From Beroe forskalii (taxonomy: Eukaryota > Ctenophora > Nuda > Beroida > Beroidae), in the NCBI GenBank assembly GCA_011033025.1, contig WFMF01000346.1, forward strand, positions 1 through 64,000: 64,000 bases of DNA, given 5' to 3'. The notes under the pieces are model-generated. The model saw nothing but the letters and a program-made list of their open reading frames with translations, ran no database searches and was not told the DNA's origin. Below, piece by piece: positions 16,164 to 62,905 of the stretch. The translations under genes and the position numbers were made by a program. Position 1 is the first letter of the stretch. The number at the start of each line of letters is the position of its first letter.

Positions 16164-16171
16164 CTCAGAAT

Positions 16172-29499: not shown

Positions 29500-30992
29500 A
29501 TAGTGCAATTAAGGATTATGAAATAGACCATACTATCTTAACAAGGCCTTAACAAGGCCTTAACAAGCTCTTAGATGAAATTGGTCAAGTTTTGATCAAT
29601 ATTAGTTGGTACTTTTGTCCTTCATAGCTTCAATATGTGCCACATTCTACTTGTAACTCTCTATATGCCTACATAATACATATATGACTGTATGGAAAAT
29701 AGTGAAATTATGGTATCTGATAAACTTGTCAAAACTTCTTTAGCATTTCATTGAACTATTTTTAGTTATTAATTCTACAGGAAGATGTTATCAATGATCA
29801 GTTGACAGTTCCTGGTAGTTGATAATATGAATTTATAGATGTTTGGAACATCTGAAGATTTTATTTTCTGTTACCTACATATAGAAAGGGTCCATGTTGC
29901 AAAGTCTAGTTCTGAGAAAAGTTTAATAATGTATAACAAAGTAACAAGTATGTATAATGATCACTAGCACTTCTGTGTAAAAGCTTGCTTAAAAGATGTG
30001 CTTTATAATTGTCAATATTTATTTATTTATTTATCATGTAATATTAATGATGTTTAAAAGTTAAATAAGATTTTTGATTGGTTAAAAACTATCAGAAAGA
30101 TCTTGGATGAGCTGTACAAAATTGAGCTAAATATCAAAATAGGCCCTATATTGACCCTTTCTATATCAAGATGATGTCATGTTATATAAATGTAGGATTA
30201 AGACATTTCAATTTTGATATCAATTGAATTTTATTAAGCATCTCCATAAGCTGACAAAATTCATTTCATTCCATTGAAGACACTTATTGATTTGAAATAT
30301 AATAACTGATTGAATTGTTATGAAATAGTTTCATATTATGTGATTTCTTTCATAGTTTCATGTTCAATGATGATATATGTAACAAAATATGTTTTATTTT
30401 TATTAAGTTTGAATGAGTTGCAGCAAACACATTTTCTGGATCTCGATGTTTAGTTAGTTGTTTGAGAATTTTTGGTCATACTACTTTTCCACATGCCTAG
30501 TTAATAACTGCTACCTATTTAGATATAACAAAACTAGTGCTACAATGGTCATACAGGTATAGAACATTTTTTGCTTCTCTAGCTTGGGGCTTATATCAGG
30601 TTTCAGGTCAATATTCAGACTCTTTTGTTTCAATAATTATTTCAATTCAAGGAGCATCTGAACTTTCATACTGAGAACAGTGTGACAGTTAAGAGGATGG
30701 GGTCCTGCTCTTGTCATGACCAGAAGCTCAGAAGTTACAGGCCCTGCTAGTTACTTAGTTAGGGATGAATGGTGGGATTAAGATTAGGTTCCACACCTGT
30801 ACTTGAATGATGGATGAATAGATGTTTTCAATAAATCAGGTATAACTGCGTACTAAGTAAACAAAAATCTTGATTACAACAGTGAAGTTTTATGTTTGTC
30901 TGCATTTTGGCCCCTCTTCGGCTCGTTTTCGTCCATTAGTAAACAATGTTGAAGAGCCCACATGCAGGACTCATTGACTCATTATTGCTTGC

Positions 30993-31006
30993 CTTACCAT
31001 GGTAAC
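30993..31006 (+). promoter_or_regulatory. RFX X-box-like palindrome upstream of KIF6
   Basis: CTTACCATGGTAAC differs at one base from the palindromic X-box form GTTACCATGGTAAC recognised by RFX factors. It lies 373 bp before the KIF6 ATG. RFX control of ciliary genes is established knowledge; its use here is inference. The duplicate arm keeps the site near 42340. Confidence 0.5.
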
Positions 31007-31378
31007 ATGTGTAAAAAAATGTTTGGGTATGATAGCCATCTCCAAGGCAGCTGTTTTCAATGCATTGAGTATTAATTACTCAAATATGATCAATAAGTTT
31101 TGATAGGTATGCATCGTGGGCACTCTGATGGAAATTTTGAGGCATGGAAATTCATTTCTAGTTTTGTGGGCCATTGCTGGTTGTTTATAAGAAAAAATTT
31201 AATTACAATTTAAAAAGAATATTGAGCAATATTAATAAGTTCAATAGAAGTATTAATTCAGCAATTGATACTATTTTCAAATCTCAAACTTGTATCTTAC
31301 CCTTGGTAGTTTCCCTTTTGTATTATAATGCCTTGACTCTTCTAACCTGGCATTTATTAATCAATGATCATTTGAGCC

Positions 31379-33634
31379 ATGGTGAAACAGGGAATAAAGA
31401 TTTTTCTTCGTCAAAAGCCTACAAAGGCAAAAATTGGATACACTGAACTTGAGAAGTCTCTTATTACTTTTCATGTGCCAAAAGAAGATAGTGAAGGTTA
31501 CATAAACAATAAAAAAGAGTCTTATAAGTTTAAGTTTGAGGAGGTGTTTCCTGGGGATACTGAACAAGATTTGATATTTGAAAAGGTGTGTAAAAGTGCT
31601 GCAGAGAGTGCAAAGAATGGATATAATGCAACTCTATTTGCATATGGTCAAACTGGATCTGGAAAAACATTTACAATCACAGGTGGTGCTGAAAGATATA
31701 AAGACAGAGGCATGATCCCTAGGTCCATAAGTTATATTTTTCAAGAATTCGAAAAAAGTCCCACATCAACATATACAATGCATATATCATATTTAGAAAT
31801 ATACAACGAAACTGGATATGATCTTCTTGATCCTGCCAAAGAAGTTACTCGCCTTGAAGACCTTCCTCGAGTTCACCTTCAAGAAGATTCTGATGGAAAT
31901 TTTCACACTCGGAATCTTACAATTCATCAAGCCAATACTGAAGAAGATGCACTGAATTTATTGTTCATGGGTGATACGAACAGAATGACTGCTGAAACAC
32001 CAATGAACATGGCTTCCACTCGATCTCACTGTATTTTCACAATTTACATCAGTTGCAAGAGTCAAGATTCTCCAACAATAAGACGTGGAAAACTTCATTT
32101 AGTTGACTTAGCTGGATCAGAACGTGTTGGAAAGACTGGTGTATCAGGAACTTTGCTCAATGAAGCAAAATATATCAATCTATCATTGCACTTCTTAGAG
32201 CAAGTTATCATTGCTTTATCTGAGAAATCAAGAACTCATATACCATATCGTAATTCCATGATGACAAGTATGTTGAGAGACAGTTTGGGAGGTAACTGCT
32301 TGACAAGTATGGTTGCCACTGTTTCTGTTGACAGAAGAAATATTGATGAATCAATATCTACTTGCAGATTTGCTCAGAGAGTTGCACTTATCAAAAATGA
32401 TGCTATTTGTAATGAAGAAGTTGATCCCAAATTAGAAATAGCCAGACTTAAAAAGGAGGTTCAAAATCTACAGGATGACATAACCCTTGCCGGAAGGCAT
32501 GCTTCATCTGATCCTTTGTCTGAAAGTGAGTTAAACCAGTGCAAAGAAATGGTGAACAAGTTCATTGAAGCTGAGGATTCTGAAGAGAGACTAGATGTGG
32601 AAGCTGATTTCAGAAAAATCCACTTTTGCTATCAGTATTTCAAACATTTACTTAGACAAGCTAGCTCACGACCATTAACAAATAGAGACAGCAGTGGTGG
32701 AAAGCAAATGTCTGAAGATGCAAATAAAGAGCTAACAAAACTCCGAGATTTGATTACTCAAAGAGACACAGAGATCAATATCTTGGTTAATCTTCTCAAG
32801 AAAGAAAAGGCCAGATTATCAAACAGCAAAGGAGATGCCTCTGTTGAGTCACTGAGTCTACCTCCAAGCAAAAACACATCTAGAAATAATCTCAAGAACT
32901 TATCAAAGGGCCGTCAAGAAGCATTTGATATTTTTAGGCGTGATTATAAAAACAATCATGCAATAGAGCAAAACAAAGCTGAATTAAAGGCAAAAATGAA
33001 AGAAGCCAAACAAATTGGTAGTGTAGTTAATAGAGTCAGAGAAAAGATCAACTCACTGAAAAGTTCTATTGAACAAAGACGTGTTGCAATGGCAGTCCAA
33101 GGGTTGGGTTCATCTGAAGGACAAGGCAGTCATGTGGATCCTGTAGAAGAAGATTTGAAAAGGCAGATAGAACGAGAGAAAGAAAGCTACAAGACGACAT
33201 TTGCTCGTCTCAGAGAACTGAAAACTGGTATTGAGCACCTGCAGCATATATTGGAACAACAACGTGTTCGTCTTCAGAAAGACTTTGAGAATTGGTTTGC
33301 TGAACAAGCAGCAGCAATCATACAACAGAGCAAACCAGCATGGCAAACGCCATCGCCAAAACTTTCACAGAAAGACAGGAGCCAAGCATCATCAGAAATT
33401 CCACAAATAATTTCTCCTGCATCTGAAGCTGACAATCATTCAACTGCTCATGATAATGGAAATTTACCTCCGCCTCTTCCTCCAATTTCGAAGAAATCCC
33501 CGACCTGGATTAGCCATAGTGCAAATGTTGATAATTCGGAAAACAATGGAGTTACTGGGGACAGTAATGTTGATGATGATATAATGGCTTTTATGAAAGC
33601 TCGGCAAGCACTTTTGAGAAAAAATAGAAAATGA
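31379..33634 (+). CDS. KIF6: Kinesin-like protein KIF6 (kinesin-9 family), intronless
   Basis: This 751-residue frame is a complete kinesin-9 motor protein and matches KIF6 rather than KIF9 along its length, beginning MVKQ as KIF6 does and ending IMAFMKARQALL. Motor landmarks are the P-loop GQTGSGKT (90-97), switch I NMASTRSH (210-217) and switch II DLAGSER (243-249), with motor end and neck at about 350. A coiled-coil stalk (about 430-650) and a Pro/Ser-rich tail follow. KIF6 works in motile cilia and ependymal function. The N-terminal strand reads FLRQKP where most kinesins have RVKP, and the following loop is shorter than in human KIF6. A poly(A) signal AATAAA is at 33710-33715. The vertebrate gene has many introns; none is present here. 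The first 329 bp are duplicated in reverse at 39567-39895. Confidence 0.95.
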   Translation: MVKQGIKIFLRQKPTKAKIGYTELEKSLITFHVPKEDSEGYINNKKESYKFKFEEVFPGDTEQDLIFEKVCKSAAESAKNGYNATLFAYGQTGSGKTFTITGGAERYKDRGMIPRSISYIFQEFEKSPTSTYTMHISYLEIYNETGYDLLDPAKEVTRLEDLPRVHLQEDSDGNFHTRNLTIHQANTEEDALNLLFMGDTNRMTAETPMNMASTRSHCIFTIYISCKSQDSPTIRRGKLHLVDLAGSERVGKTGVSGTLLNEAKYINLSLHFLEQVIIALSEKSRTHIPYRNSMMTSMLRDSLGGNCLTSMVATVSVDRRNIDESISTCRFAQRVALIKNDAICNEEVDPKLEIARLKKEVQNLQDDITLAGRHASSDPLSESELNQCKEMVNKFIEAEDSEERLDVEADFRKIHFCYQYFKHLLRQASSRPLTNRDSSGGKQMSEDANKELTKLRDLITQRDTEINILVNLLKKEKARLSNSKGDASVESLSLPPSKNTSRNNLKNLSKGRQEAFDIFRRDYKNNHAIEQNKAELKAKMKEAKQIGSVVNRVREKINSLKSSIEQRRVAMAVQGLGSSEGQGSHVDPVEEDLKRQIEREKESYKTTFARLRELKTGIEHLQHILEQQRVRLQKDFENWFAEQAAAIIQQSKPAWQTPSPKLSQKDRSQASSEIPQIISPASEADNHSTAHDNGNLPPPLPPISKKSPTWISHSANVDNSENNGVTGDSNVDDDIMAFMKARQALLRKNRK

Positions 33635-37049: not shown

Positions 37050-38024
<975 letters not shown>

Positions 38025-39566: not shown

Positions 39567-39895
39567 CTGTCTTATATCTTCAGCACCACCTGTGATTGTA
39601 AATGTTTTTCCAGATCCAGTTTGACCATATGCAAATAGAGTTGCATTATATCCATTCTTTGCACTCTCTGCAGCACTTTACACACACCTTTCAAATATCA
39701 AATCTTGTTCAGTATCCCCAGGAAACACCTCCCCTCAAACTTAAACTTATAAGACTCTTTTTTATTGTTTATGTAACCTTTCACTATCTTCTTTGGCACA
39801 TGAAAAGTAATAAGAGACTTCTCGTTCAGTGTATCCAATTTTTGCCTTTGTAGGGCTTTTGACGAAGAAAAAATCTTTATTCCCTGTTTCACCAT
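39567..39895 (-). pseudogene. KIF6 5' fragment in arm B
   Basis: Reverse-strand copy of KIF6 codons 1 to about 109, stopping just after the P-loop region. Small indels, mostly in homopolymers (for example cc to ccc in the Lys-Pro codons near the start, extra g in the gaggtg stretch), break the frame several times; recognisable pieces are MVKQGIKIF, KSLITFHVPK and YINNKKESYKFKFE. It cannot encode a motor. It may be a true pseudogene or an unpolished duplicate. Confidence 0.85.
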
Positions 39896-40227
39896 GGCTG
39901 AAATGATCATTGATTAATAAATGTCAGGTTAGAAGAGTCAAGGCATTATAATACAAAAGGGAAACTACCAAGGGTAAGATACAAGTTTGAGATTTGAAAA
40001 TAGTATCAATTGCTGAATTAATACTTCTATTGAACTTATTAATATTGCTCAATATTCTTTTTAAATTTTAATTAAATTTTTTCTTATAAACAACCAGCAA
40101 TGGCCCACAAAAACTAGAAATGAATTTCCATGCCTCAAAATTTCCATCAGAGTGCCCACGATGCATACCTATCAAAACTTATTGATCATATTTGAGTAAT
40201 TAATACTCAATGCATTGAAAACAGCTG

Positions 40228-42297
40228 TTAGCCAGGGGGTTCTTTTCGATGTCCAGAGAATTATTGAATTTGTTAGTTCAATGATAACAATCAAATTTCA
40301 ATAATTGGCAACGCTCACGCCCGTTTTAACATTTTATTGACGCTGCAATTCGTAATATATCTGGCCAGGAAGAGTCAGAGACTTTTTGCTCAACAATGTA
40401 CGGCCATGTTTATTATACAGCAAAAACATGTTTGGGGTCGCTTCCTGAAATCGAGTTAAAGTCAAAGCATTTTTTTAAAGCGATGGTTAAAATCGATTAT
40501 TTTATCATATCTGGGTTAGAATGCAGAGACTTGTCATACCAGCACGCATTGGCATGGCATGAGTTTATATGACTTGCATAAACATATGCCCAATGCCACA
40601 GAACCGTTGTAGAAAATCGATTTTGTCATTGCCGTGGAATTTTTGCATCATCGGGCATCCATAGCCTAAAACACCGTTTTGCCTCTCTGAAATGTTCTTA
40701 ACATCCGCTTCTGAGAAAATAGCCTTGGGGGTCTAGAATATCACAATGGTTATGTTGAACTAGCTTAGCGCTGATTTGGAGCCGCTTGACATCGTCCAAA
40801 ACAGTGACCAGGTCAGAAGGTTCAGAGATTAGCTTTTTAAGTCAACGAGAGCCGTGGTCGGCCATGTTTATTAGACTGTTCGACAAACATGCTCTGTAAT
40901 GCCTGAACACAGCAGCTGTGCTATTTGAGCCAGCGATATTTCAAAATTAGCACTTGTTCACTTGCTAGAAGTCATAAAGACTCTGAAGCACAGCTTCAGC
41001 ACCACACTGGCATAGCTTACTTGTGAATGAACATATGCTCAGCGAAACTTCAGTTATAGGCCATAAACTGATTTTTGCCGACATCGCTATGTGAGACGTA
41101 GAAAAATGAAATGCAGAATCCATGGGTTTTGATGTGCTTACCAAAATTTTGACCTTCAAATGTACTTCAAACATCCCTCCTGTGATAAAAAAAGGTTTTT
41201 GGGGTCTAAAATTTTGGTTTGCAGATCAAAACATGGATTCTGCATTCATTTTCTACCAAATCTCACATATATTTATAAAGGCCAAAAATCAGTTTTTGGC
41301 CTATAACTGAGTTTCTGAGCATTTTGGGGCATATGTTCGTTCACAGGTCGTATATAAACATGCCAATTGTGGTTCTTTTGAGCTATTAACGAAGTCTTTA
41401 TGACCTTCCTAGCCCAAATTATGAACAAATTAACAATTTTGAGCAATCGCTTTGGCTCAAAATGCTTTTTGGCCTGTAACTCGGTTCAGGAGCATTTTGG
41501 AGCATATGTTTATTGACAAGTCTAATATAAACATGGCCATTGCGATTCGTTTGAGCCCAAAAACAAGTCTCTAAGACCTTCCTGGCCTGAGATATGATTT
41601 TTTGGACATGCGCGTCAAAAAATGACATCAAATCCAGTTGCTAAATAGTTCAACATAGCCATTGTGACTATTCTAGACCCCCAAAACATTTTTCTGTCAA
41701 ACGAGGGATGTTTAAAGATCATTTTCAGGGGTAAAATTTTGGTCTCGACCCCAGAACATGGATGCTACATTGATTTTTTGCCAAAAATTCCACAGCGAAA
41801 ACGACCAAAAATCAGTTTTTTGCCTATAACTTGGTTTCTGAGCATTTTAGGGCATATGTTTATTCACAAGTCGTATATAAACATGCCAATTGCGGTTCTT
41901 TTGAGCTATGAAAGAAGTATCTGCGTCCTTCCTAGCCCAAGTTATGATAAAATAATCGATTTTTAGCCATCGCTTTGGGTAAAAATGCTTTTTGGCCTGT
42001 AACTCGGTTCAGGAGCATTTTAGAGCATATGTTTATTAACAAGTCTAATATAAACATGGCCATTGCGATTCGTTTGAGCCCAAAAACAAGTCTCTACAAC
42101 CTTCCTAGCCCGAGATATGAATTTTTGAACACACGCGTCAATTAAATGACAAAAAGTGGGCGTGGTCAAGTGTTCGCCACTATTTGAAAATTTCTACCCC
42201 CCTCAAAGTTGATTGTTATCATTTGAACTAACAAATTCCAATGAGAAATTCTCTGGACATCGAAAGGCCTACTCAACTTTGGCTAGCTACTCTAGTA
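40228..42297. mobile_element. 2.07-kb foldback element, copy 1 (asymmetric arms)
   Basis: Inserted between cagctg and ccttgg; arm A shows the uninterrupted site. The right arm is nearly identical to the element at 50441-52770 and ends ggctagctactctag. The left arm is the same family but strongly diverged and lacks about the first nine terminal bases. No transposase. Short frames inside arise from the palindrome. Confidence 0.8.
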
Positions 42298-43768
42298 CCT
42301 TGGAGATGGCTATCATACCCAAACATTTTTTTACACATGTTACCATGGTAAGGCAAGCAATAATGAGTCAATGAGTCCTGCATGTGGGCTCTTCAACATT
42401 GTTTACTAATGGACGAAAACGAGCCGAAGAGGGGCCGAAAATGCAGACAAACATAAAACTTCACTGTTGTAATCAAGATTTTTGTTTACTTAGTACGCAG
42501 TTATACCTGATTTATTGAAAACATCTATTCATCCATCATTCAAGTTCAGGTGTGGAACCTATCTTAATCCCACCATTCATCCCTAACTAAGTAACTAGCA
42601 GGGCCTGTAACTTCTGAGCTTCTGGTCATGACAAGAGCAGGACCCCATCCTCTTAACTGTCACACTGTTCTCAGTATGAAAGTTCAGATGCTCCTTGAAT
42701 TGAAATAATTATTGAAACAAAAGAGTCTGAATATTGACCTAAAACCTGATATTAGCCCCAAGCTAGAGAAGCAAAAAATGTTCTATACCTGTATGACCAT
42801 TGTAGCACTAGTTTTGTTATAAATATCTAAATAGGTAGCAGTTATTAACTAGGCATGTGGAAAAGTAGTATGACCAAAAATTCTCAAACAACTAACTAAA
42901 CATCGAGATCCAGAAAATGTGTTTGCTGCAACTCATTCAAACTTAATAAAAATAAAACATATTTTGTTACATATATCATCATTGAACATGAAACTATGAA
43001 AGAAATCACATAATATGAAACTATTTCATAACAATTCAATCAGTTATTATATTTCAAATCAATAAGTGTCTTCAATGGAATGAAATGAATTTTGTCAGCT
43101 TATGGAGATGCTTAATAAAATTCAATTGATATCAAAATTGAAATGTCTTAATCCTACATTTATATAACATGACATCATCTTGATATAGAAAGGGTCAATA
43201 TAGGGCCTATTTTGATATTTAGCTCAATTTTGTACAGCTCATCCAAGATCTTTCTGATAGTTTTTAACCAATCAAAAATCTTATTTAACTTTTAAACATC
43301 ATTAATATTACATGATCATTATACATACTTGTTATACATTATTAAACTTTTCTCAGAACTAGACTTTGCAACATGGACCCTTTCTATATGTAGGTAACAG
43401 AAAATAAAATCTTCAGATGTTCCAAACATCTATAAATTCATATTATCAACTACCAGGAACTGTCAACTGATCATTGATAACATCTTCCTGTAGAATTAAT
43501 AACTAAAAATAGTTCAATGAAATGTTAAAGAAGTTTTGACAAGTTTATCAGATACCATAATTTCACTATTTTCCATACAGTCATATATGTATTATGTAGG
43601 CATATAGAAAGTTACAAGTAGAATGTGGCACATATTGAAGCTATGAAGGACAAAAGTACCAACTTATATTGATCAGAACTTGACCAATTTCATCTAAGAG
43701 CTTGTTTATACCTTGTTAAGGCCTTGTTAAGATAGTATGGTCTATTTCATAATCCTTAATTGCACTAT

Positions 43769-44206
43769 GTGTGCTCATTAGTAAAAAGCAAATGTATTTA
43801 AAAGGTGTTAAAACCCCAAAAAATGATTTTAAACACTTCACGTGGATCTACTATTGTTGTTTGAGCACTTAATAAGATAGATACAAACAGTATTTCTTGA
43901 AATGAAGAACTGTCTAAGCTTTGGCTTCAGAACCCTTTTTAAGTTTTTACTACCCTGTTAACTACCCTTTTGACAAGGTACTAGGTCCTACTTAGGTAGG
44001 GTAGTAAAAAGGGAGTTAAAAGGGGAGTAAACCCAAAAGTAATTATCAAAAACTTTTTCGAATTGGATTTGCAGTTGTCCCAACACTCAAAATAGATATT
44101 TAGAATTTTAAAAGTTTTTCTGAAGTTAAAAACTGTCTTTAAAGGCTGTGCCTCACAATGCTTTTTACTTTCCTTTTGATAATGAGCTTTTGACTGATAA
44201 GCACAC
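43769..44206. mobile_element. Arm B copy of the 441-bp TIR element
   Basis: Reverse complement of 29059-29499, with a few substitutions and indels. It duplicated along with the arm and is not an independent insertion. Confidence 0.7.
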
Positions 44207-45382
44207 TTTCATGTCATGATGCAAGTTCATAAAATAAAATAATATTTGTTATTTAGTAATAAGTGATAATCCCAAAATTTGAGCAAATGATGTCAAGAAA
44301 AGTTAATTTTTTCTTAAGTAATTTTTTTCTTAATAATTCTTCCATTTGTCAATCAATATTTATACAATAGAGCTAAATAGATATGGTTTACTGGTTACTG
44401 GCAACTAAATTATTAATAGTTCATTTATGATAGAACTATTAATTGCATGACCTTACATATCAAAAATAAAAAATTTCCAGCTGATTCCTTGTCCATAGTT
44501 TGAGAAAGGCTGTGAACTGGACATACTCATTAGTCATTACCATGGTGTCCCAACCTAGTTTATGATGTGTAATGACCAAGTGGTATGATGTGTATCATGC
44601 TTATCATACTGAAAAATTTACATTGGTTATCAATCAAAATTGACTGCCATGCTGCAATGTCAGCACAAAAAAGCATGATACACTATGTACCACTATTGTG
44701 GCATAAACTAGATCAGGACATCATGGTTTCTTATGTAACCAATTGAAGTTGCAATGGTATGAAGATACTTCCAATGAAATGGGGAAAAGAAAAACCAATA
44801 CATAATAAGATAATATTTATATACCTACTTCAACAAGAGAAACAAAATAATAAAAAATCTTACAAACAATACTAAAAATTATGGCCCAAATAATTTGAAT
44901 GTAACTTAACATCTAATGAATACAGTATTAATCATATTCCCATGTCAGGTAAGCAGTATATCTTCTGCTTGATCTGAGAATTACTGGTAAAATGGCATAA
45001 AATTTTGTCAACTTTTATTTTTTCAACATTCTAAATAATCTCTCCTTGATTTCTATTGACAATATTGTTTCCAGATTCAATGTCTTATATTGTTATCTGG
45101 GTGTCACATGGGTTGCATTGGTGCAAATATTTTTTTCAAGCAGAATTTTCACTCACAAATTTTGAATGTATTTCCAGTTTCTGATAAAAGCCATCTGAAA
45201 AGGATATCCACAAAATTTTGGTAACTTTAGACCTCTCCCTCCTCCTTGTCAGCGAATGTCTGTAAACTCAAACACGGACCCCCAGACAGGCTGCATTTTT
45301 CTTGAAAATCAATTGGTAAATTGGTAGGCTCTGGTTTTTGCCTTTGTCAGGAGCAAAAAAAATCGGCTTTGGACCTCCCAGT

Positions 45383-45766
45383 CCCAGATACATCTCTCTT
45401 GGCAACACTTTGTGGCACCTTGTTCATCTGTATTCCTCAGAATCACTATTGTTATTCATTTTAAGCAAGGATCTGGGGAGTAAGGGTACTTGCTCAGGAG
45501 CCAGAGGTTCCATTCCATTCAAATGGAAATTGTAATGAACAGAAATTTTTACATACAATACTTAAATTCATTATCCCAGATACATCTCTCTTGGCAACAC
45601 TTTGTGGCACCTTGTTCATCTGTATTCCTCAGAATCACTATTGTTATTCATTTTAAGCAAGGATCTGGGGAGTAAGGGTACTTGCTCAGGAGCCAGAGGT
45701 TCCATTCCATTCAAATGGAAATTGTAATGAACAGAAATTTTTACAGACAATACTTAAATTCATTAT
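45383..45766. repeat. 192-bp tandem duplication inside arm B
   Basis: The segment from cccagatacatctctcttgg to aatacttaaattcattat occurs twice head to tail in arm B but once in arm A. The two units are almost identical, so the event postdates the arm duplication. Confidence 0.9.
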
Positions 45767-46079
45767 CTCAAAGACAATAATTCAAAATTATTTTGTTGCC
45801 ATGATAAATTGAAAGCAGGGGTCTGGAGGCATTATAGCTCCCAGAAGCCAGAGGTTCTAAATGAAAATTATTTTCTTTTAATCAGGATTCGAAGAGACTT
45901 CATGTCATGTTAAAATGTAGCTTTATGTCTTTATCAGACTCACGGCCAGTTTGCTGAGTTTGAAATCCAGTTTACAGAGCAAGTTTATAACTTTTGCTTG
46001 AATTGTTAAATAATATTATTACTACTTAAGTTGTCAAGCGACAAAAACTTTAATTACTATTATTATCATTATTATTATA

Positions 46080-47912
46080 CACACTAGGTTATGTGTTGAG
46101 AATCAGTATTTGAATATTGAAGGGTATGATTTTTGCTAGATTTCTCTAAGATGTTTTCATCACCGCACGTTCAGGCGGAGCCTTTGATCAGGGCATTTAG
46201 AGTTATATATATATGTCCAAATCCACGTTACGTAACGCACACTTTTTACTCGATTTTGAGGATTCAAAGGTCAAGGCAGCCAAATTGAAGTCATCACAGC
46301 ACTATTCCTTGCTTTAGAGACAAACTTCAAACATTCATTGAGCCTATTTGATGTTTTGAATGAGAATTGGTTGCACAGAAAATTTTACACAAGCCATCAA
46401 AAATGTTACGTAACGCACAGGACTGGATCAAATAAAATCAATTGACAGAATTTGATCACAAAAGTCAGTTCCATGTGAGCGAATGGGGAGTTCACACTAG
46501 TTTCTAATGATAGAAGAATATATAAACTTTAAGTTTAACAATGCTTTTTATTGGTTGATGCACCCCATTTTCTTTACCAGGCTCACATAATTTGTTACGT
46601 AATGCACAAAATGCCTGTTACGTAATGCACAAATTTTCCTCACTGTGAATAGACCTATTTTATACTGTTCTATTATTGACATAGTAAAAGGCCTCAATTA
46701 GATGCAAAGACAATCAAGGTCCTCAATCTAAAAATCTTGGTGGTTCTATCAATTTCAGTCCCATAAATAGGCCATCAAAGTGTAGCAAAAATTGGATCAA
46801 TTTTCTATGATTTTACTGTCATACTCAAGAATATTTCATTTCTGACAGGGTTAAGATCACTCTTGGTATCACCCAGCAACTTTATAAGATGAATAATGAT
46901 CCCTATCGTGAGAGGGCCAAATTCAACGATTTTCGAATTTGCTAGTAGAAAAGATGTTTTTCATGTGTCACAAAGTGGCAAATTTTGAGAAAATCACTTT
47001 TGAGGCCATTAAAGCACAAATTCCTCAAGGGCATTGATATCTTATACCCCTGAATACATTTTTGATAGCATTTAGGTTCTAGAAAAAGAAAATTTATCGA
47101 TTTATGCTTTTGATTTTCTAATGTATGTGGGATTGAATGACTAAATACTAAATTTTCTTTGTAATTCTTTTCTAAGTTGAAATTTACTTTACATTTCCTT
47201 ATCTGTAAGTTATTACAGAATTTTCTGATTAGAAATGGATATTTCTTGCAGTTTCTTTCATTGAAAATTAATTGGAAAAAGTTTTGTGCATTACGTATCG
47301 TTACATGCGCACAAGGCCATATGTCTAAATTTGATCAGTCTAAGCTTTCACACATGTTGCCATGACGACCAAAGTATCAAAACAGCTGAAAATGAGTTTT
47401 CGGCATAAATGGAAATGAATTAAGGCTTTTACAAACTTTTTGCATCATTTTGTTACGTAACTCACACATCAATTGTCCCAAAGAGTTTGAACGTCACTTC
47501 AAAATAGTTAGAGAAAGATTATTCATATATTAAAATATGAATCAAACTAGATCAAAAGTCCACTATGGAGCAAAAATTATTCCTTGATTACAAATATAAG
47601 CATTCTTTATGATAATTCAAAAATGCCATTAATTGAGGCTGAACATTGTCCAAAAGTAGCCCTACTCAATTGGTGCAAATCGTCGAGTTCTTTCAATATT
47701 TTTTTGATGCGGTTTTTGCATCATTTAGAGGAAAGTCTTAGCTTTCATTTGAAGTCAAAGCTTTTGCTGGACTGATGATTTCAAATTCAAAATTTTTTCC
47801 CTCGTTTTACCGTGGATTTGCCCATATATATATATACACTGTTAATTTAGTTTTCCCATATTCCACTCGGCTTCTCCTTGAGGAATTTCCAAATCCACAC
47901 CTCCTTAGTGTG
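46080..47912. mobile_element. 1833-bp TA-flanked non-autonomous element with CACACTA ends
   Basis: Ends are CACACTAGGTTATGTG and the inverse of CACACTAAGGAGGTGTGG, with TA on both sides (46078-46079, 47913-47914). It has no open frame of transposase size. At least six GTTACGTAAC-like motifs are scattered inside. Arm A carries an 80-bp internally deleted form at the matching site. The TA target fits Tc1/mariner-type or other TA-specific families; the assignment is tentative. Confidence 0.7.
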
Positions 47913-47989
47913 TAGTAACAACATTTTCATAATTATGGCATTGTTCTGAAGGATGACCAGGCATGATAGGGGAGAAAAGGGCATTTAAA

Positions 47990-49200
47990 CTTTTAAAAGA
48001 GTAAGATAAAATTGTGCCCTTTTAAATTTTTTTTTAGATTGAAAAGAAACTTTTGCTTTTTTTTAGCCCCCTTTGCCCTGTTATATGATTTATTCCTACC
48101 CGTGCCAAAAATTTTTAGAAAAACAGAGGGGGGGTCATGTCGTTTATTGTTTGTCCAGATATATTTATTTTTTTTATTTTGTTTGATAAAATGGAAAAAA
48201 AACAAATAGAACAAAAATAACATTCAAAAAGATTTTTAAAAATTTTTCAAAAAGTTTTTATTTTTGAATGTAAATTTTGGCAAATTTCATTAATTTACTT
48301 TCCTCTAACCCTTAGTTTTAAGTTTTTAATGGGAAATTTAAAGGGAAAAATTTAGCTTTTTAAAAACCCCCCAATTTGATCCAATTTAAGAATTTTTGTT
48401 TATAAAATTTTTTTTTCCAAAAAAACAGTAACACCCATTAAAAATTTGAAAATTTTTAAAAATTATGTATCTAAATTGGAAACGTTTTTTTTAAACCCCT
48501 GCCCTCATTTGATATTTTTTGTGTATGAACCAATGACCAACCCCAAAAAGGGAACTAATTTTGACAACATCAAACTTTAAAAACTGATTATTTTTTGGTA
48601 TTTTCACAAAAATGGAGATGAAAGGGATAGGACAAAAGCCAATTTTAAATACCAAAAAATAGGGCCATTTTAAAACAAATCAGATTTTTAACAAATCATG
48701 TTTGGAAAAAAGGGCATTTTGAAAATAAATCAAATTGTTATAAGAATTTTAAACATAAATTCAAAAAAACTTTTTAAATACTGAAAAACATAGTGGGAAA
48801 AGTCAAATTTTGCACAAATGGGGAGTACATTTCCCCATCAAGGGGGGTTTTATAGTATATCCCCAGCCCACAGCAAGTTTACAACAAGCGAAAACAAAAC
48901 ATCTTTTTTATTAAATGGTTGTTTGGGGTTTTCCAGACTTAAAAATAAATAAAGGGTTTCTTTGCCCTTTTTTTTCATTCAAAAGGTTCCCCAAAAAAAA
49001 ATTTTATTAAATCAGGCAGTTGCCTGTAGTAATGTTCACGAGGACGCTTAATCAGGGCTTGCCACAGAACAGGCAGGGTCTATGAGCGTGTCATGGTCTA
49101 TTTTGACGAAGTAACTGAACCTGAACATCTCTATACTCCTCCTCATGGCCCATAACTTTGTACCGTAACATGTCCTCCCTTCCGTCAGCTCAGGCACCAA
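47990..49200. other. Low-accuracy segment with homopolymer-indel signature
   Basis: From 48000 to 49010 the sequence is a recognisable but degraded reverse copy of 26100-27250. Differences are mainly lengthened or merged A, T, C and G runs (ggggggg, ccccc, tttttttt). The same type of indel continues into the adjacent GT31 fragment to about 49200, then stops. This resembles unpolished long-read consensus rather than evolutionary divergence. Confidence 0.7.
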
Positions 49201-49599
49201 GAACACGTCCCCGTGATGTGAGACTTCCTCCTGCAGTTCCTCAGAGAAGCCCTTCTCTCCTCTTCCAATAACGAACATCAGCTGGAATGTGAGGAACTCA
49301 GGACCCACTCCCTCGTATTCCAGAGGGTTCCAGTTCGTGTGATTTATCCAACGGCTCCGGGTGGATTGCCGGATTTTAGAGCATTCTGCAGTGTCCATCG
49401 AAGGTATGGCAATTACGACAAAAACACTGTTCTTCATCGATTTTTGCTGATTGACTTCAAAACTGTTACCATTTGGAGTAATCGGATGAGACTCAATATC
49501 AGAGTTGGACATCAAATGAGTAAATAGAAGGACATTTATTACTGCTAACCCAACTAATACTTTTGATTTTGTGGTTATTTTCAGAAGGAACTTCAGCAT
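49022..49599 (-). pseudogene. GT31 glycosyltransferase copy 1, N-terminal part only
   Basis: Starts MLKFLLKITTKSKVLVGLAV, a short cytosolic tail and type II membrane anchor, then VFVVIAIPS, a galactosyltransferase family 31 core with IRQSTRSRWIN and VKIDHDTLID containing the metal-binding DHD. The homology stops at the junction with arm B near 49011, so the C-terminal half is absent. Near the junction one extra G (in cagggtctatg) and several small deletions shift the frame. The family transfers galactose, GlcNAc or GalNAc in beta-1,3 linkage in the Golgi; the substrate is unknown here. Confidence 0.8.
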
Positions 49600-50440
49600 T
49601 TTCCACCTGAAAAGAAGTTGTGTAGGAACTAGAATGAAAATAACGAAGATTTATAATCCCCTAGAACAAAATTTCAAGTTTGGATTTAAACTGTGGATTA
49701 TACTATTATAAAACCACGGAATCTTAATTATCAGATTTGATTGTTCATGCATATTGGTATCCCGGATTCCCAGTACAAAACTGATGAAATGTAGAAGACC
49801 GAGTCGGTCTTCTGACCGACAAGAGGAAAAAGAAATCATAGGAATATATTTTAATACTTTTATACTCCGCACAGGAGAAATAGGCGGGTAGGATGACATC
49901 ATTATCATAGCTCAATGTAGTGAGTTGATGACGTGGCACCGCCTATTTCTCTTACGCGTCGTTTAATATTCAAAAGGGCATTCGAATAAGATTTTCAGTG
50001 GAAAGATTTTGAAGAAATGAGGAATGAGGGATGCTATCCAATACGGACTGTTTTCCGTTGGGTCGCAGCCATCAGCAGTGGGTGCCTTGAACTGGAGAAA
50101 GGAAATTGTGAGCCCAATTAAGGAAGCCTATTTTGACTTGTACTGCTGAAGTTGTGCAGTGCAATTAGAATTGAGACAAGAACCATGCTTTGGAGATTAA
50201 GAGCCGTTCTCGGTTTGAGAAATGGTTTAATTAACAATAACAGAATATAACATGATTTTCTAGCACATAGAAACCATATTGCACAAAAACTGAAAGATCA
50301 AGAGCAAGATGGAAAATGACACAATATATTCACGCCATACAAAGCTGTACAGACATAGAGTTGTACACATACATGAGCGTATTACATGCAGTAACAAGCA
50401 AGCAAGCATCGTTACTTCTAGTTCTACTCTTCTACATATA
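49600..50440. other. Upstream flank of GT31 copy 1
   Basis: Shares much of its sequence with the flank of copy 3 (56513-57520), including the cttgtactgctgaagttgtg and gttgtacacatacatgagcg blocks. It carries a 102-bp mini-element that the copy 3 flank lacks. No separate gene. Confidence 0.6.
49863..49964. mobile_element. 102-bp palindromic TA-targeting mini-element, copy 1
   Basis: Starts tactccgcacaggagaaata and ends tatttctcttacgcgtcgtt, with an inverted core of tgacatcattatcatagctc. Absent from the paralogous flank of GT31 copy 3 near 56735. Same family as 52421-52523, with the interior in the opposite orientation. Confidence 0.75.
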
Positions 50441-52770
50441 CTAGAGTAGCTAGCCAAAGTTGAGTAGGCCTTTCGATGTCCAGAGAATTTCTCATTGGAT
50501 TTTGTTAGTTTAAATGATAACAATCAACTTTGAGGGGGGTAGAAATTTTCAAATAGTGGCGAACACTTAACCACGCCCACTTTTTGTCATTTAATTGACG
50601 TGTGTGTTCACAAATTCATATCTCGGGCTAGGAAGGTTGTAGAGACTTGTTTTTGGGCTCAAACGAATCGCAATGGCCATGTTTATATTAGACTTGTTAA
50701 TAAACATATGCTTTAAAATGCTCTGAACCGAGTTGATAAAAAAATCATTTTTACCCAAAGCGATGGCTAAAAATCGATTATTTTATCATAACTTGGGCTA
50801 GGAAGGACTTAGAGACTTCGTTCATAGCTCAAAAGAACCGCAATTGGCATGTTTATATACAACTTGTTAATAAACATATGCCTTAAAATGCTCAGAAACC
50901 AAGTTATAGGCAAAAAACTGATTTTTGGTCGTTTTCGCTGTGGAATTTTTGGCAAAAAATCAATGTAGCATCCATGTTCTGGGGTCGAGACCAAAATTTT
51001 ACCCCTGAAAATGATCTTTAAACATCCCTCGTTTGACAGAAAAATGTTTTGGGGGTCTAGAATAGTCACAATGGCTATGTTGAACTATTTAGCAACTGGA
51101 TTTGATGTCATTTTTTTGACGCGCATGTCCAAAAAATCATATCTCGGGCCAGGAAGGTCGTAGAGACTTGTTTTTGGGCTCAAACGAATCGCAATGGCCA
51201 TGTTTATATTAGACTTGTTAATAAACATATGCTCTAAAATGCTCCTGAACCGAGTTACAGGCCAAAAAGCATTTTGAGCCAAAGCGATTGCTCAAAATTG
51301 TTAATTTGTTCATAATTTGGGCTAGGAAGGTCATAAAGACTTCGTTAATAGCTCAAAAGAACCACAATTGGCATGTTTATATACGACTTGTGAATAAACA
51401 TATGCCCTTAAATGCTCAGAAACCCAGTTATAGGCCAAAAACTGATTTTTGGCCATTATCGCTATGTGAGATTTGGTAGAAAATGAATGCAGAATCCATG
51501 TTTTGATCTGCAAACCAAAATTTTAGACCCCAAAAACCTTTTTTATCACAGGAGGGATGTTTGAAGTACATTTCGAAGGTCAAAAATTTGGTAAGCACAT
51601 CAAAACATGGATTCTGCATTCATTTTCTACCAGATCTCACATAGCGATAATGGCCAAAAATCAGTTTTTGGCCTATAACTTGGTTTCTGAGCATTTTAGG
51701 GTATATGTTTATTCACAAGTCGTATATAAACATGCCAATTTTGGTTCTTTTGAGCTATTAACGAAGTCTTTATGACCTTCCTAGCCCAAATTATGAACAA
51801 ATTAACAATTTTGAGCCATCGCTTTGGCTCAAAATGCTTTTTGGCCTGTAACTGGGTTCAGGAGCATTTTAGAGCATATATTTATTAACAAGTCTCATAT
51901 AAACATGGCCATTGCGATTCGTTTGAGCCCAAAAACAAGTCTCTACGACCTTCCTGGCCCGAGATATGATTTTTTGGACATGCGCATCAAAAAATGACAT
52001 CAAATCCAGTTGCTAAATAGTTCAACATAGCCATTGTGACTATTCTAGACTCCCAAAAACCTTTTTCTGACAAACGAGGGATGTTTAAAGAACATTTTCA
52101 GGGATAAAATTTTTGGTCTCGACCCCAGAACATGGATGCTACATTGATTTTTTTGCCAAAATTCCACAGCGAAAAATGACCAAAAATCAGTTTTTGCCTA
52201 TAACTTGGTTTCTGGCATTTTAGGGCATATGTTTATTCACAAGTCGTATATAAACATGCCAATTGCGGTTCTTTTGAGCTATGAACGAAGTCTCTAAGTC
52301 CTTCCTAGCCCAAGTTATGATAAAATAATCGATTTTTAGCCATCGCTTTGGGTAAAAATGCTTTTTGGCCTGTAACTCGGTTCAGGAGCATTTTAGAGCA
52401 TATGTTTATTAACAAGTCTATACTCCGCGCATGAGAAATAGGCGGTTTAATGTCATCAACTCACTATTTTGAGCTATGATAATGACATCATCCTACTCGC
52501 CTATTTCTCGTGCGCAGCGTTTAATATAAACATGGCCATTGCGATTCGTTTGAGCCCAAAAACAAGTCTCTACAACCTTCCTAGCCCGAGATATGAATTT
52601 TTGAACACACGCGTCAATTAAATGACAAAAAGTGGGCGTGGTCAAGTGTTCGCCACTATTTGAAAATTTCTACCCCCCTCAAAGTTGATTGCTATCATTT
52701 GAACTAACAAATTCCAATGAGATATTCTCTGGACATCGAAAGGCCTACTCAACTTTGGCTAGCTACTCTA
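50441..52770. mobile_element. 2.3-kb near-complete palindrome (foldback element), copy 2
   Basis: The terminal sequence ctagagtagctagccaaag is mirrored at the right end (ctttggctagctactcta). The entire left half to about 51540 reappears inverted from about 51600 to 52770, leaving only a few tens of bases unpaired at the centre. Arms contain repeated blocks such as gccattgcgattcgtttgag and aagtctctacgaccttcc. A 103-bp mini-element sits at 52421. The flanks match the uninterrupted GT31 copy 3 flank near 57505. No transposase. Confidence 0.88.
52421..52523. mobile_element. 103-bp palindromic mini-element nested in the foldback element, copy 2
   Basis: Interrupts aagtcta|atataaac, which is intact elsewhere in the same family. 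Ends are tactccgcgcatgagaaata and tatttctcgtgcgcagcgtt, with TA duplicated. It breaks the symmetry of the host palindrome, so it arrived later. Confidence 0.85.
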
Positions 52771-53756
52771 ATAATAGTAGTAGTCTTCTATAGTAGTCAA
52801 TGTTAATGACGGAATCAGGGTTTATGAGCATTATGTGCCATATATGAATTGTTTTCCCAAGATCAAAATTCACCCATCCGGCACATCCAAACAGAGCCAA
52901 ATTTAGCACACCACCAGACAAGGTGTATAAACAATTAAAAAAGATAATAGCCTTCTGGACTCAGGCCCCCTCCACTAAGGGAGGGGGACCTCCCTTACAT
53001 CTTGCCTATTTAAAGTCCACGTTCTGACCGCATGTTAACCACGGAAAACCACCTCAACTCGCCACAAGGACGAGGAGCGCATGGCTATTTTAATTGTTTA
53101 TCTTAAATCGTAACATGCGTAATCGAAACGTGCGTCATAAAATCGATACGTGCAAAATTTCGTGGGACGTGAAATTTTACGAAGAAATTTTAGCTCCTCT
53201 CTCTCTCTCTCTCTCCCTCCCTCCACCCCTCCAAGTTGCGTAGGTATCCCGTCTGTAGAAGGTGCGTAGGTATTCCGTAGGTATTCTGTCAGAAGGTTGT
53301 CCATAGAGTAGGTATTCCGTCTGTAGAAGGTGTGTAGGTAGAAGGTATGTAGAGTAGACATATATCGAATGAGATACTTTGCCTGGACCCCCCTATATAT
53401 ACTAGCATTGACGAGATACGTAACATGGTCTGACACCAGTAGGTGAGACCATGGGTGTCTGACACTAGTAGGTGAGACTACAGATGTCTGACACTCTACC
53501 GCAGATATACCGAGATACCATTTTCAATGAATTACGTCGAGATTCAGGTTGATAGAAATCCAATCACACGCACCTGTTGGAAACCAATCGCACGTTTGTT
53601 GATACTGATAGGCATAGAATCATAAACGTATTGAACACTTGACAGAATTTCGATCACATGCGTGTTGATTTCAATCCAATAACGTGCCGACAGCTGTGTA
53701 AATTGGACTTCAATCAGTCCACAGCACTGTGCGCATAAAATTCACCTAATGTGCTG
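52771..53756. repeat. Duplicated 3' flank of GT31 copy 2
   Basis: The block from aaaaaagataatagccttc (about 52938) through cctcaactcg, cgatacgtgcaaaatttcg, a (CT)n tract and tgtgctgtcacttgaccgg is repeated at about 54585-55196 beside copy 3. This copy has an extra minisatellite of gtaggtattccgtctgtag units at about 53240-53350. Confidence 0.8.
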
Positions 53757-55188: not shown

Positions 55189-56512
55189 TCACTTGACCGG
55201 ACACAAACACTGATTATCAGGATTCTCATAGTCAAACCCAAACTCCTGACACTCTGATTCTCGCACCATCGTCCTACACCGGAATACCTCCTCCATCACC
55301 TCGTGATCCTTAATCCAGTGCATGAACCAGAACCCCTGTCTGAAGTCCTCCCTGCTGTGTGGGAACTCCCTGACCCCCCTCTCCTCCATAGTCCGGATAC
55401 TGGTGTTACTCCTCAGTTCGATGTTGTGAACCAGCCACCCCACGTACAGATCCTCGTGTTTTATGATAACTCTGGCGTGGAGAGGATCCTCCTCTACGAT
55501 CTGCCTCACTACGTCACGGGAGACAACGTACCCACCTCCCTGACAGTAGTAAAACACACCCAAGTTCTCGTAGCTTCGTCGTTTGGGGACACGAATCAGG
55601 CAGTTGCCTCCGTAGTAATGTTCACGAGGACGCTTAATCAGGGCTTGCCACAGAACAGGCAGGGGGCCATCCATAAAGGACGTCCGCAATGAGGGGGGAG
55701 GGGGGAGTCTGGCCAATGCGGACGTTTGCGGACGTAGGGGGGAGGGGGGTGTTTGGCCAAATGCGGACGTCCGCAATTCATGGAAATTTTGGGCGATTTG
55801 ACGGCTATTTCACTAGAAAATCATGAAATTTCAGGGCCAAAATTGACGACCCAAAAAATTTTCAAGAAAAATGCGGACGTCCGGGGGGAGGGAGGGGTTT
55901 CTGGATTGCGGACGTTTGCGGACAAGGGGGAGGAAGGGGTCTAAAAAGGCCGAAATTTTGCGGACGTCCTTTATGGATGGCCCCCAGGTCTATGAGCGTG
56001 TCATGGTCTATTTTAACGAAGTAACTGAACCCGAACAACTCCACACTTCTCCTCATGGCCCACATGACTTTGTACCGTAACATGTCCTCCCCTTCCGTCA
56101 GCTCAGGCACCAAGAACACGTCCCCGTGATGTGAGACTTCCTCCTTCAGTTCCTCAGAGAAGCCCTTCTCTCCTCTTCCAATAACGAACATCAGCTGGAA
56201 TGTGAGGAACTCAGGACCCACTCCCTCGTATTCCAGAGGGTTCCAGTTCGTGTGATTTATCCAACGGCTCCGGGTGGATTGCCGGATTTTAGAGCATTCT
56301 GCAGTGTCCATCGAAGGTATGGCAATTACGACAAAAACACTATCTTTCATCGCTTTCTGCTGATTGACTTCAAAATTATTACCATTTGGAGAAATCGGAT
56401 GGGAATCAATATCAGATTTGGACATCAAATGAGTAAATAGAAGAACATTTATAACTGCTAACCCAACCAATACTTTTGATTTCGTGGTTACTTTCAGAAG
56501 GAACTTCAGCAT
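55189..56512 (-). pseudogene. GT31 glycosyltransferase copy 3, full length but split by a MITE
   Basis: Both halves are present and undamaged apart from the insertion. 56512 to 55988 encodes the anchor (MLKFLLKVTTKSKVLVGLAV) through VKIDHDTLIDL. 55659 to 55189 encodes PVLWQALIKRPREHYYGGN through EDLYVGWLVHNI and ends NQCLCPVK. A 322-bp MITE sits between them within a single coding exon, directly after the DHD motif, and brings stops in frame. Without it the protein would be about 340 residues, the usual size for a Golgi beta-1,3-glycosyltransferase of family GT31. Whether the insertion is fixed, or another allele is intact, cannot be told from one sequence. Confidence 0.82.
55663..55984. mobile_element. 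322-bp PIF/Harbinger-like MITE inside GT31 copy 3
   Basis: Terminal inverted repeats GGGGCCATCCATAAAGGACG and its complement, extended inward by tccgca, are flanked by a 3-bp duplication CAG (55660-55662, 55985-55987). Copy 2 shows the empty site caggcaggtctatg. The interior repeats gcggacg and ggggggaggggg motifs and has no transposase. A 3-bp target and a GG-start TIR fit PIF/Harbinger or ISL2EU. Confidence 0.88.
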
Positions 56513-58387
56513 TTTCCACCTGAAAAGAAGTTGTGTAGAGCGAAATAACGAAGATTTATAATCCCCAAGAATAAAATTTCAAGAATTATAAAAAAAAAGA
56601 GAGATTGGATTGAAACTGTGGATTCTAAATCTATGAAAGGCTGATTATCTGTTGATTGTCATGCATAATGCATATCAGAACAAAGCTGATAGAAGGCTGA
56701 CAAGTGACAAGTAAAGAGGGAAAAGAAATCATAGGAATATTTAATATTCAATTATACTTATACTCTTATAGAGTGTTCAGTGGTACGTTATTGTGAAGAA
56801 ACTACTGACTGGATCAACATTCAACTTTCTGAGACTGAACCATTAATGATTTATCATATACCAAAATAGTCAAAAAATACGATCCTGATATCTTGCTATC
56901 AGTGAAAAAATCAAGACAGGATTAAAATATATGGATGACTGTGGTTCAATTTAAAAGAATGGCTGAACGACCCTTTTTCAATTGTATTAGGACATTTGAC
57001 CTGCACTAAACGTACAAAAACTTCCGTTTCTACGTTGAAACTCGCTATCAACTCGCACTATCATTTAAAGATATACGTTGAATGAGATTGGCTCGTTATG
57101 GTACACAAGAGAATAAGGGACGCTATCTCAAACAGACTGTTTTCCGTTGAATCGCAGCCATCAACAGTGGGTTCCTTGAGCTGGAGAAGAGAAATCACTA
57201 AATTAAAGCCCAGGGAAGCCTATTTTGACTTGTACTGCTGAAGTTGTGCACTGCAATTGAGACAAGAACCATGCTTTGGAAAGAAAGAGCCGTTCTCGGT
57301 TTGAGAAATTGATCTGATATTTAACAGAATAAAATGATTTGCTAGCAGAATAGAAACCATATTGCACAAAACAGTAAGGATCAAGAGCAAGATAGAAACT
57401 GACACAATATATTCACGCCATACAAAGCTGTACAGAGATAGAGTTGTACACATACATGAGCGTATTACATGCAGTAACAAGCAAGCAAGCATCGTTACTT
57501 CTACTCTTCCAGTAGTCAAAGTCAATGAAGCTATCAAGATTTATGAGCATCATGTTCCACTTCCAAAGTTCACCCAGCCGGCACATCAAACCAAGCCAAA
57601 TTTAGCACACCATCAATGAAAACATCGCAGCAGATGCTTTCTGTTTAAGCGCATAAGCATAGTTAAGTACGTAGTAAAAAGGAAATTAACCACATTTCTA
57701 CTGATGTATCTACTGCTCATAGGCCATACAACTATAGACGCATATACTCATATACTATATATACTATACAAGCTCAACAGCTTGAGCCGCATGAACACGC
57801 AGGACTAAGTCAGAGCATCGTTACATCGTTATAATGAACTAGTTGTTGATCCTGGCGCATGTCAGCAGGCGAAGTGAGCGCCAAACAGTTACAGAGAGAT
57901 AAAAAGGAGGCCGAGCAGGCGCATGTTGCATGTGATACAGGTTTGCGACAAGAGAATTACAGTACGGGATCAGAAGTTGGAGAGGATAACTTGAAGTTGA
58001 TAACTTAGACGGAGTTGATACAAATCAGCCAGACTTGTCTACTGATCAGGGTAATTATTCATCTATCTAAGAGCTGCAAAATTGAGCTCCAATTGCTTAC
58101 AATTTCATTATATACGAACACTAGAACTTAGAACACTAGAATACTAGTTCAGTAGAAATTTTATCCAAAAATGGCAACACCAAGAAAAGATAGGATTCCA
58201 ATCAACTGACATCAAGCATGTGATTTGATCCCAGTGATAATAAGATAATAATATTTCCCCGTAGATGCCCCAGTTATTATATAAGATCAGTTGATACATA
58301 AGATCATCTTAACTATTCAACCAAACCAATGAACCAAATATTAACGCTATACCTCCTAACCAGACAATTACCCCGACGATTTTTCAG
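56513..58387. other. GT31 copy 3 upstream flank and intergenic DNA
   Basis: 56513-57620 parallels the flank of copy 1 and shows the empty site of the foldback element near 57505. A 49-codon frame at 57859-58008 (MSAGEVSAKQLQRDKKEAEQ and onward) has no homologue known to me and no clean splice link. The motif TTCCAATCAACTGACATCAA recurs at 58196. Confidence 0.5.
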
Positions 58388-61292: not shown

Positions 61293-62905
61293 AAACCTTG
61301 TAAACCTTGTAAACCTTGTAAACAGCACACCACCCCTCTTTATCACACCACCCCCCTACATCACACCACCCCACTATATCACACCACCCCACTATATCAC
61401 ACCACCCCACTACAGCACACCACCCCTCTTTATCACACCACCCCCCTACATCACACCACCCCACTATATCACACCACCCCACTACATCACACCACCCCGC
61501 TACATCACACCACCTTACTACATCACACCACCCCACTACATCACACCATCCCACTACATCACACCACCCCACTACATCACACCACCCCACTACAGCACAC
61601 CACCCCCCTACATCACACCACCCCACTACATCACACCACCCCACATCACACACACCACCCCTCTACAGCACACCACCCCACTACATCACACCACCCCACT
61701 ACATCACACCACCCCACTACATCACACCACCCTCGCCCATCACACACCCCTTACTACATCACACCACCCCACTACATCACACCACCCCACTACATCACAC
61801 CACCCCACATCACACCACCCCACCATCACACCACCCCACTACATCACACCACCCCACTACATCACACCACCCCACTACATCACACCACCCCACTACATCA
61901 CACCACCCCGCTACATCACACCACCCCACTACATCACACCACCCCACTACATCACACCACCCTACTACATCACACCACCCCACTACATCACACCACCCCA
62001 CTACATCACACCACCTTACTACATCACACCACCCCACTACATCACACCACGTCACCACCCCACTACATCACACCACACCACTACATCACACCACCCCGCT
62101 ACATCACACCACGTCACCACCCCACTACATCACACCACACCACTACATCACACCACCCCACTACGTCACACCACCTTACTACATCACACCACCCCACTAC
62201 ATCACACCACCTTACTACATCACATCACCCCACTACATCACACCACGCCACTACATCACACCACCTTAATACATCACACCACCCCACTACATCACACCAC
62301 CCCACTACATCACACCACCCCACTACATCACACCACCCCACTACATAGCACCACCCCACTACATAGCACCACCCCACTACATCACACCACCCCTCTACAG
62401 CACACCACCCCACTACATCACACCACCCCACTACATCACACCACCCCACTACATCACACCACCCAGCTACATCACACCACCCCACTACATCACACCACCC
62501 ACTACATCACACCACCCAGCTACATCACACCACCCCACTACATCACACCACCCCTCTACAGCACACCACCCCACTACATCACACCACCCAGCTACATCAC
62601 ACCACCCCACTACATCACACCACCCCACTAAAGCACACCACCCCACTACATCACACCACCCCACTACATCACACCACCCCACTACATCACACCACCCCAC
62701 TACATCACACCACCCAGCTACATCACACCACCCCACTACATCACACCACCCACTACATCACACCACCCAGCTACATCACACCACCCCACTACATCACACC
62801 ACCCCACTAAAGCACACCACCCCACTACATCACACCACCCCACTACATCACACCACCCCACTACATCACACCACACCACCCCACTACATCACACCACCCT
62901 AGTCC
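61293..62905. repeat. 18-bp minisatellite, roughly 85-90 units
   Basis: Near-perfect tandem units of atcacaccaccccactac, with variants (cccctctac, ccttactac, ccagctac) and a few shortened units. A short (ttgtaaacc)n run precedes it (61293-61322). Because 18 is divisible by three, long frames of HHTTPL or WCDVVG repeats are open on both strands; they have no acceptor, no non-repeat domain and are not called as genes. Confidence 0.95.

Follow-up and report, generated by a model that had tools for sequence, protein, structure and literature searches.

Foldback elements of animals, such as the TU elements of sea urchin and FB of Drosophila, carry inverted arms that are built from repeats, and the element described here can be likened to them by description. 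Three better documented systems provide further points of likeness. Tetris of Drosophila virilis, as described in PMC4079207, resembles our element in its foldback structure, its absence of apparent coding capacity, and its ~220-bp tandem repeats within long terminal inverted repeats, and three complete copies of Tetris were recognised in that account without an autonomous partner. Tm1, which belongs to the Mutator/Foldback family and is found in root-knot nematodes, is similar in having composite long inverted repeats with short unequal motifs outside them, and the arms of one Tm1 element are, according to the published description, 93.15% identical on average (PMC3169594). Galileo, a member of the P superfamily in Drosophila, is described as having foldback-like long inverted repeats and a structure that readily changes, and it is alike in both respects (PMC4168063).

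The element considered here is a palindrome of ~2.3 kb with limits at 50439-52773 of the window (the whole 64-kb stretch of DNA that was analysed), and its halves pair with each other at E = 0 in a self-BLAST comparison. We regard it as a non-autonomous foldback-type (long-TIR) DNA transposon that is moved in trans, and we place the probability of this reading, in which the erosion of the left arm in a second copy is artefactual, at about 0.82. Such an element would consist of two 1.1-kb arms built from a repeated ~170-bp block, separated by a very short centre and lacking any gene; its movement, presumably by cut-and-paste, would depend on a transposase that is supplied in trans from another part of the genome and recognises the ends of the arms. 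In addition, the arms may recombine, and one crossover between them when they are paired would invert the core. Because the anatomy combines repeat-built inverted arms, a minimal centre, the lack of a gene, and the existence of counterpart sites, it matches that of non-autonomous foldback elements. Counted against this reading is the result that the 64-kb window yielded neither a transposase nor any further copy, nor a clear target duplication. The features discussed below are collected in Table 1.

Table 1. Coordinates of the two copies of the palindromic element, their parts, and the corresponding sites that lack it
Feature	Position	Strand	Basis or remark
Copy A left arm, corrupt (probably a long-read artefact)	40228..41115	+	219 missing, 61 extra, 94 mismatches in 1107 columns
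Copy A right arm, good quality, counterpart of B left arm	41208..42297	-	1054/1092 columns match B left arm
Uninterrupted counterpart of copy A site	31047..31048		Other arm of inverted duplication
Candidate target site duplication, copy B left, TCTTCTA	50428..50434	+	Longest shared flank word
Copy B left arm	50439..51535	+	1050/1104 aligned columns match reverse complement of right arm
Four direct copies of 139-nt block, copy B left arm	50585..51417	+	Starts 50585, 50755, 51106, 51279
Copy B unaligned centre	51536..51575	+	Sets element orientation; reversed in copy A
Copy B right arm, broken by 100-bp insertion	51576..52773	-	BLAST and arm alignment
MITE-like insertion, about 100 bp, nested in copy B right arm; absent from left arm	52420..52519		BLAST break
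Candidate target site duplication, copy B right, TCTTCTA	52784..52790	+	Longest shared flank word
Uninterrupted counterpart of copy B site	57503..57511		Beside paralogous GT31-type gene

When the left arm of copy B is aligned with the reverse complement of its right arm over the intervals of Table 1, minus the 100-bp insertion, the non-matching columns comprise 37 mismatches and 13 indel events, and only ~40 bp remain as an unaligned centre, situated within a looser-pairing stretch of roughly 100 bp. The original prediction of a near-complete palindrome, with ~1.1-kb arms and almost no unique centre, is borne out by this alignment. Long terminal inverted repeats form most of the element, as in foldback elements generally, each arm accounting for 1.1 of 2.3 kb; these inverted repeats also contain tandem or modular repeats, namely the four 139-nt blocks of the left arm. 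In the direct-repeat search, the block copies are 68-92% identical to the first, are spaced at 170, 351, and 173 bp, and lie inside a 524-bp period, and inverted copies of them are seen by BLAST in the opposite arm and in copy A. Of the proposal that the arms are built from blocks in direct and inverted order, the direct repeats are confirmed, while the inverted order largely restates the palindrome.

The longest stop-to-stop frame in copy B has 91 codons, the median being 84 and the 95th percentile 118 when the mononucleotides were shuffled 200 times, and the longest open frame in copy A has 105 codons (compared with the copy B shuffles only). Open frames are at chance level in these shuffles, in agreement with the predicted lack of coding capacity. 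Two features had escaped earlier attention: the corrupt left arm of copy A and the nested 100-bp insertion in the right arm of copy B. A relative of this MITE-like element of ~100 bp is found at 49860-49958 (BLAST, 83.8% over 99 columns), and TACTCCGC-type ends are present in both.

The second copy, A, is located at 40228-42297 in the reverse orientation with respect to copy B, as shown by the centre sequence. It lies within one arm of a large inverted duplication, which pairs 26195-31707 with 39567-48907 and consists of five aligned blocks, four of them 96.9-99.1% identical and one 77.5%. In the other arm, the flanks of copy A match 31048-31707 at 97.5% and 30033-31047 at 99.1%, with only the element between. 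The duplication also carries the 5' part of a KIF9-type gene, and a 192-bp tandem duplication (45382-45767) is present in the arm holding copy A. Copy B is situated ~0.8 kb beyond a reading frame at 49048-49650 (minus strand); beside copy B, the frame region 49077-49678 is 93.4% identical to the galactosyltransferase gene at 55987-56583, and the flanks of the copy have counterparts at 57111-57503 (left, 84.8%) and 57511-57615 (right, 72% over 125 columns).

Thus, as is typical of foldback elements, there are two copies at unrelated sites and two counterpart sites without the element. The presence of the element in one member of two separate duplicated loci, and its absence from the other member, supports mobility on the evidence of the sequence comparison; by itself, this presence and absence fits insertion or excision alike. 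Mobility had been proposed from two filled sites with known empty sites, and this proposal stands in part: the two copies have unrelated flanks, and the counterparts lack the element. It is less secure than first put forward in that the copy B counterpart, described as an empty site, is only a paralogue (84.8% and 72%), and copy A shows no visible target duplication. The concern that the empty sites might be assembly gaps can be set aside, as both are continuous sequence without N.

A search of the flanks for target duplications gave different results for the two copies. No duplication is visible for copy A, whose longest flank-shared word of 3 nt is reached in 1907 of 2000 random draws. The longest such word for copy B is TCTTCTA, 7 nt, and 52 of 2000 draws do as well, with draws in the minisatellite at 61.2-63.0 kb skipped and scored as misses. 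At the paralogous site of copy B the corresponding word, TCTTCCA, occurs once, which is what a target duplication predicts for TCTTCTA. The TCTTCTA words do not adjoin the conserved arm end but are separated from it by short sequences of unequal length, 4 nt at one end and about 10 nt at the opposite end.

These observations might suggest that the element belongs to a particular superfamily, whether hAT (8-bp duplications, TAGAG ends), Mutator-like (9-bp duplications), or P/Galileo (7-bp duplications), an assignment that is possible but should be regarded as doubtful. For hAT, the arm starts with TAGAG, which we take to be a hAT-like start; an 8-bp duplication directly outside TAGAG was rejected, as the 8 outside bases in copy B differ between sides. 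For a Mutator-like element, copy B is flanked by ACTCTTCTA and AGTCTTCTA, which are alike at 8 of 9 positions (8-10 bp being the Mutator duplication length), and it has unequal short ends outside the arms, as described for Tm1 (PMC3169594); no such pair accompanies copy A. For P/Galileo, TCTTCTA alone is 7 bp long, as in the published description of Galileo (PMC4168063), and this candidate is present in copy B only. All of these assignments are opposed by the weakness of the copy B candidate, given the number of random draws that equal it, by the lack of any candidate in copy A, and by the fact that no transposase sequence is in hand.

The three good arms also bear on the history of the element. 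Over 1083 ungapped columns, private changes number 17 in the A right arm, 16 in the B left arm, and 25 in the B right arm, and those of copy B are partitioned at a break at columns 450-498, with 15 outer and 1 inner in B left and 3 outer and 22 inner in B right. A break this strong was obtained in 0 of 5000 label shuffles, and Fisher's test gives p = 1.8e-7; the break column was picked from the data, a choice for which the shuffles allow and the Fisher values do not. The test is weakened because variable sites are clustered, and when clustered changes are counted once within 5, 10, and 15 bp, p becomes 2e-5, 6e-4, and 0.004, respectively. Judged from sequence, the reciprocal pattern in copy B appears to be what is expected if the arms had paired and a single crossover had inverted the core; mixed variants of other copies would also give rise to it.

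The corrupt arm of copy A can also be read at these private sites: at the outer B-left sites it has the common base in 9 of 15 cases, the B-left base in 2, a gap in 3, and another base in 1, and at the inner B-right sites the common base in 12 of 31, the B-right base in 3, a gap in 11, and another base in 5. This reading is weak, as 263 of 1017 invariant columns are also wrong in that arm, and it uses a different alignment, so that its site list differs from that of the arm-switch test.

Comparison of the copy A flanks with their empty counterpart shows differences at 7 of 1668 sites, as against 30 of 1084 between the A right and B left arms (p = 4e-7), and all clean duplication segments together differ at 33 of 4419 sites, again compared with 30 of 1084 between the arms (p = 5e-7). 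The latter count leaves out the low-quality patch at 26195-27376 / 47852-48907, which has 78 mismatches and 105 indel events in 1204 columns. Because the divergence between A and B exceeds that of the A flanks, copy A, if it came after the duplication, was not copied from B, and in that case at least one further copy probably existed in the genome. This argument fails if A was already present before the duplication and has since disappeared from the other arm. A further proposal is that the palindrome persists through continued recombination, both between its own arms and with other copies, copy B being a hybrid with its core inverted by one crossover; we consider this unlikely. If it is true, the divergent variant sits in the outer left and inner right quarters of copy B, and palindromes without genes stay palindromic by arm exchange and not by selection for a product.

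The left arm of copy A presents a separate problem. Relative to its own right arm, the 219 missing bases fall in 80 events and the 61 extra bases in 30, and the arm is without about a fifth of its bases. Deletions, insertions, and substitutions occur throughout, affecting every 100-bp bin, and in 50-bp bins along the reverse complement of copy B the loss begins at the outer edge, continues to about 1000-1050, and falls to near zero thereafter, the centre being at 1099-1138. The flank adjoining this arm is clean, with 259 of 260 bases matching the empty counterpart. Indel events outnumber mismatches in the copy A arm pair (110 to 94), compared with ratios of 5:30, 9:39, and 13:37 in the three pairs of good arms.

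One explanation is that the sequence of this arm is genuine and that numerous small deletions, for example hairpin-linked ones after insertion, have eroded one arm alone. Palindromes are unstable in cells, and the loss is indeed confined to one arm of a palindrome. However, the two arms of one insertion are of the same age, so that a one-arm loss this large is not ordinary decay, and the other arm of copy A still matches B at 1054 of 1092 columns. Furthermore, if the element came after the duplication, its age is limited by the few differences in the duplication flanks (7 of 1668 sites), and changes of all three kinds, deletions, insertions, and substitutions, are found along the entire arm. 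Real one-arm decay, which is improbable, was rejected on the equal age of the arms and the intact right arm.

A better account is provided by the way in which long reads traverse palindromes. In the description by Spealman, Burrell and Gresham (Spealman et al., 2020; PMC7229812), inverted duplicates re-pair past the nanopore, the strand is pulled faster, and bases are missed, with the low quality and missed bases setting in at the junction and continuing over a length equal to that of the arm before it. The damage in copy A coincides with the arm at both ends, and an artefact is therefore the preferred explanation: the left arm most probably reflects failed base calling where the second arm of a hairpin-forming strand was read, and not decay, the read type being presumed to be nanopore from the error pattern. 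Copy A is then most probably a full palindrome in the living genome. Under the nanopore model, corruption of the left arm implies that minus-strand reads dominated the consensus, and the fit of the damage to an error on the second arm means that the left arm and its junction are not trustworthy.

Some observations count against the artefact: copy B, an equally good palindrome, is not corrupt, so that the nanopore model needs better two-strand coverage there, and clean duplication segments also show indel-to-mismatch ratios of 0.67 to 2.75, based on few events. The ratio is 1.35 in the low-quality patch from 47852 to about 48800, where the indel-rich differences indicate that the assembly has errors not tied to palindromes. 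In that patch (47852-48800 versus 26195-27270), 67 of 75 substitutions are to a neighbouring base, and runs of at least 4 make up 0.394 of the sequence versus 0.135. The corresponding substitution counts are 31 of 93 in the copy A left arm and 19 of 36 between the copy B arms, as against 67 of 75 in the patch, and the error type in the patch differs from that in the copy A left arm. Overall, this case serves as a warning that one palindrome arm in a long-read assembly can look anciently decayed as a result of reading error, and such arms would mislead dating, target-duplication, or small-RNA analysis of these elements.

It was also proposed that the transcript would be a long double-stranded RNA and a natural siRNA source. 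Hairpin-RNA loci yielding endo-siRNAs are described in Drosophila (PMC10317233), and the central 1496 nt of the element, treated as RNA, folds as a single long hairpin of -1121.7 kcal/mol (folding without shuffles at this length). However, any inverted repeat folds likewise, and the nested insertion and divergent arms of copy B show no sign of constraint. That the element is a hairpin-RNA locus kept for this function is therefore very improbable, and the production of a long dsRNA transcript and siRNA from it would be a matter of conjecture.

The least probable explanation, namely that whole-genome amplification or chimeric long reads created the palindromes, draws on documented artificial palindromes of this kind (PMC6218980) and on other poor stretches of the assembly, and it was rejected because the element is found with the same ends at two sites that are unrelated, its arms differ by 37 substitutions and one of them holds a nested insertion, and pairing stops cleanly at the element ends and includes no flank.

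As for its surroundings, the window has the character of an animal-type nuclear genome, with Pfam matches for 8 of 9 predicted reading frames; these include EMC7, BAR/PH/RhoGAP/SH3, a KIF9-type kinesin, NOA36, a galactosyltransferase (for which "GT31-type" is the name used in the original prediction), and the Mst1 SARAH domain. The KIF9-type kinesin (31376-33634), BAR/PH/RhoGAP/SH3 (23288-25606), and NOA36 (37050-38024) genes are each one long open frame, which points to few introns or to retrocopies. Another palindromic element, unrelated to the first, occupies 16173-18000, with arms of a AGCCTCCACT-type minisatellite, tandem arrays in opposite orientation at 16648-17050 and 17058-17271, and a middle, about 17270-17650, that pairs poorly. 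It has an exact 9-bp flanking repeat, CTCAGAATG, at 16164-16172 and 18001-18009, a length that 10 of 2000 random draws reach, and it is a candidate for a cleaner foldback element than the palindrome at 50439-52773. A long 18-bp minisatellite, ACATCACACCACCCCACT, extends over 61322-62899 in about 87 copies.

Neither Rfam at gathering thresholds nor ARAGORN returned anything in the 64-kb window. Relatives of the element were sought by DNA pattern in six scans of viral and prokaryote contig collections, four covering viral contigs and two covering genome contigs, and five of them returned nothing; these collections are not eukaryote genomes, and the result carries little weight. Two contigs retrieved with a degenerate 24-mer in the viral-contig scan (L001 and L002) were taken as chance matches, as the best E among the best 20 BLAST rows was 0.059 and none of these rows fell inside either copy.

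Finally, the element can be distinguished from the systems that it most resembles. Tetris differs in possessing a middle domain and in that its complete copies are flanked by 8-9 bp target duplications, as described in PMC4079207, whereas the centre here is ~40 bp, a comparison made by description. Tm1 is unlike it in its 13-15 bp repeats and in its duplications, which are mostly 9 bp (45 of 53 with 8-10 bp), and an autonomous transposase is known for Tm1, unlike the case for the present element within the 64-kb window (PMC3169594). Galileo has transposase-bearing copies and a preferred target, in which it is again different; its 7-8 bp duplications are of a length compatible with the copy B candidate (PMC4168063, as described there). 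Set against these known families by description, the element is ordinary in kind and mobile-looking, and it apparently represents a new foldback family, one that adds to those already described an example in which the unique centre is nearly absent and a trace of arm exchange can be seen.
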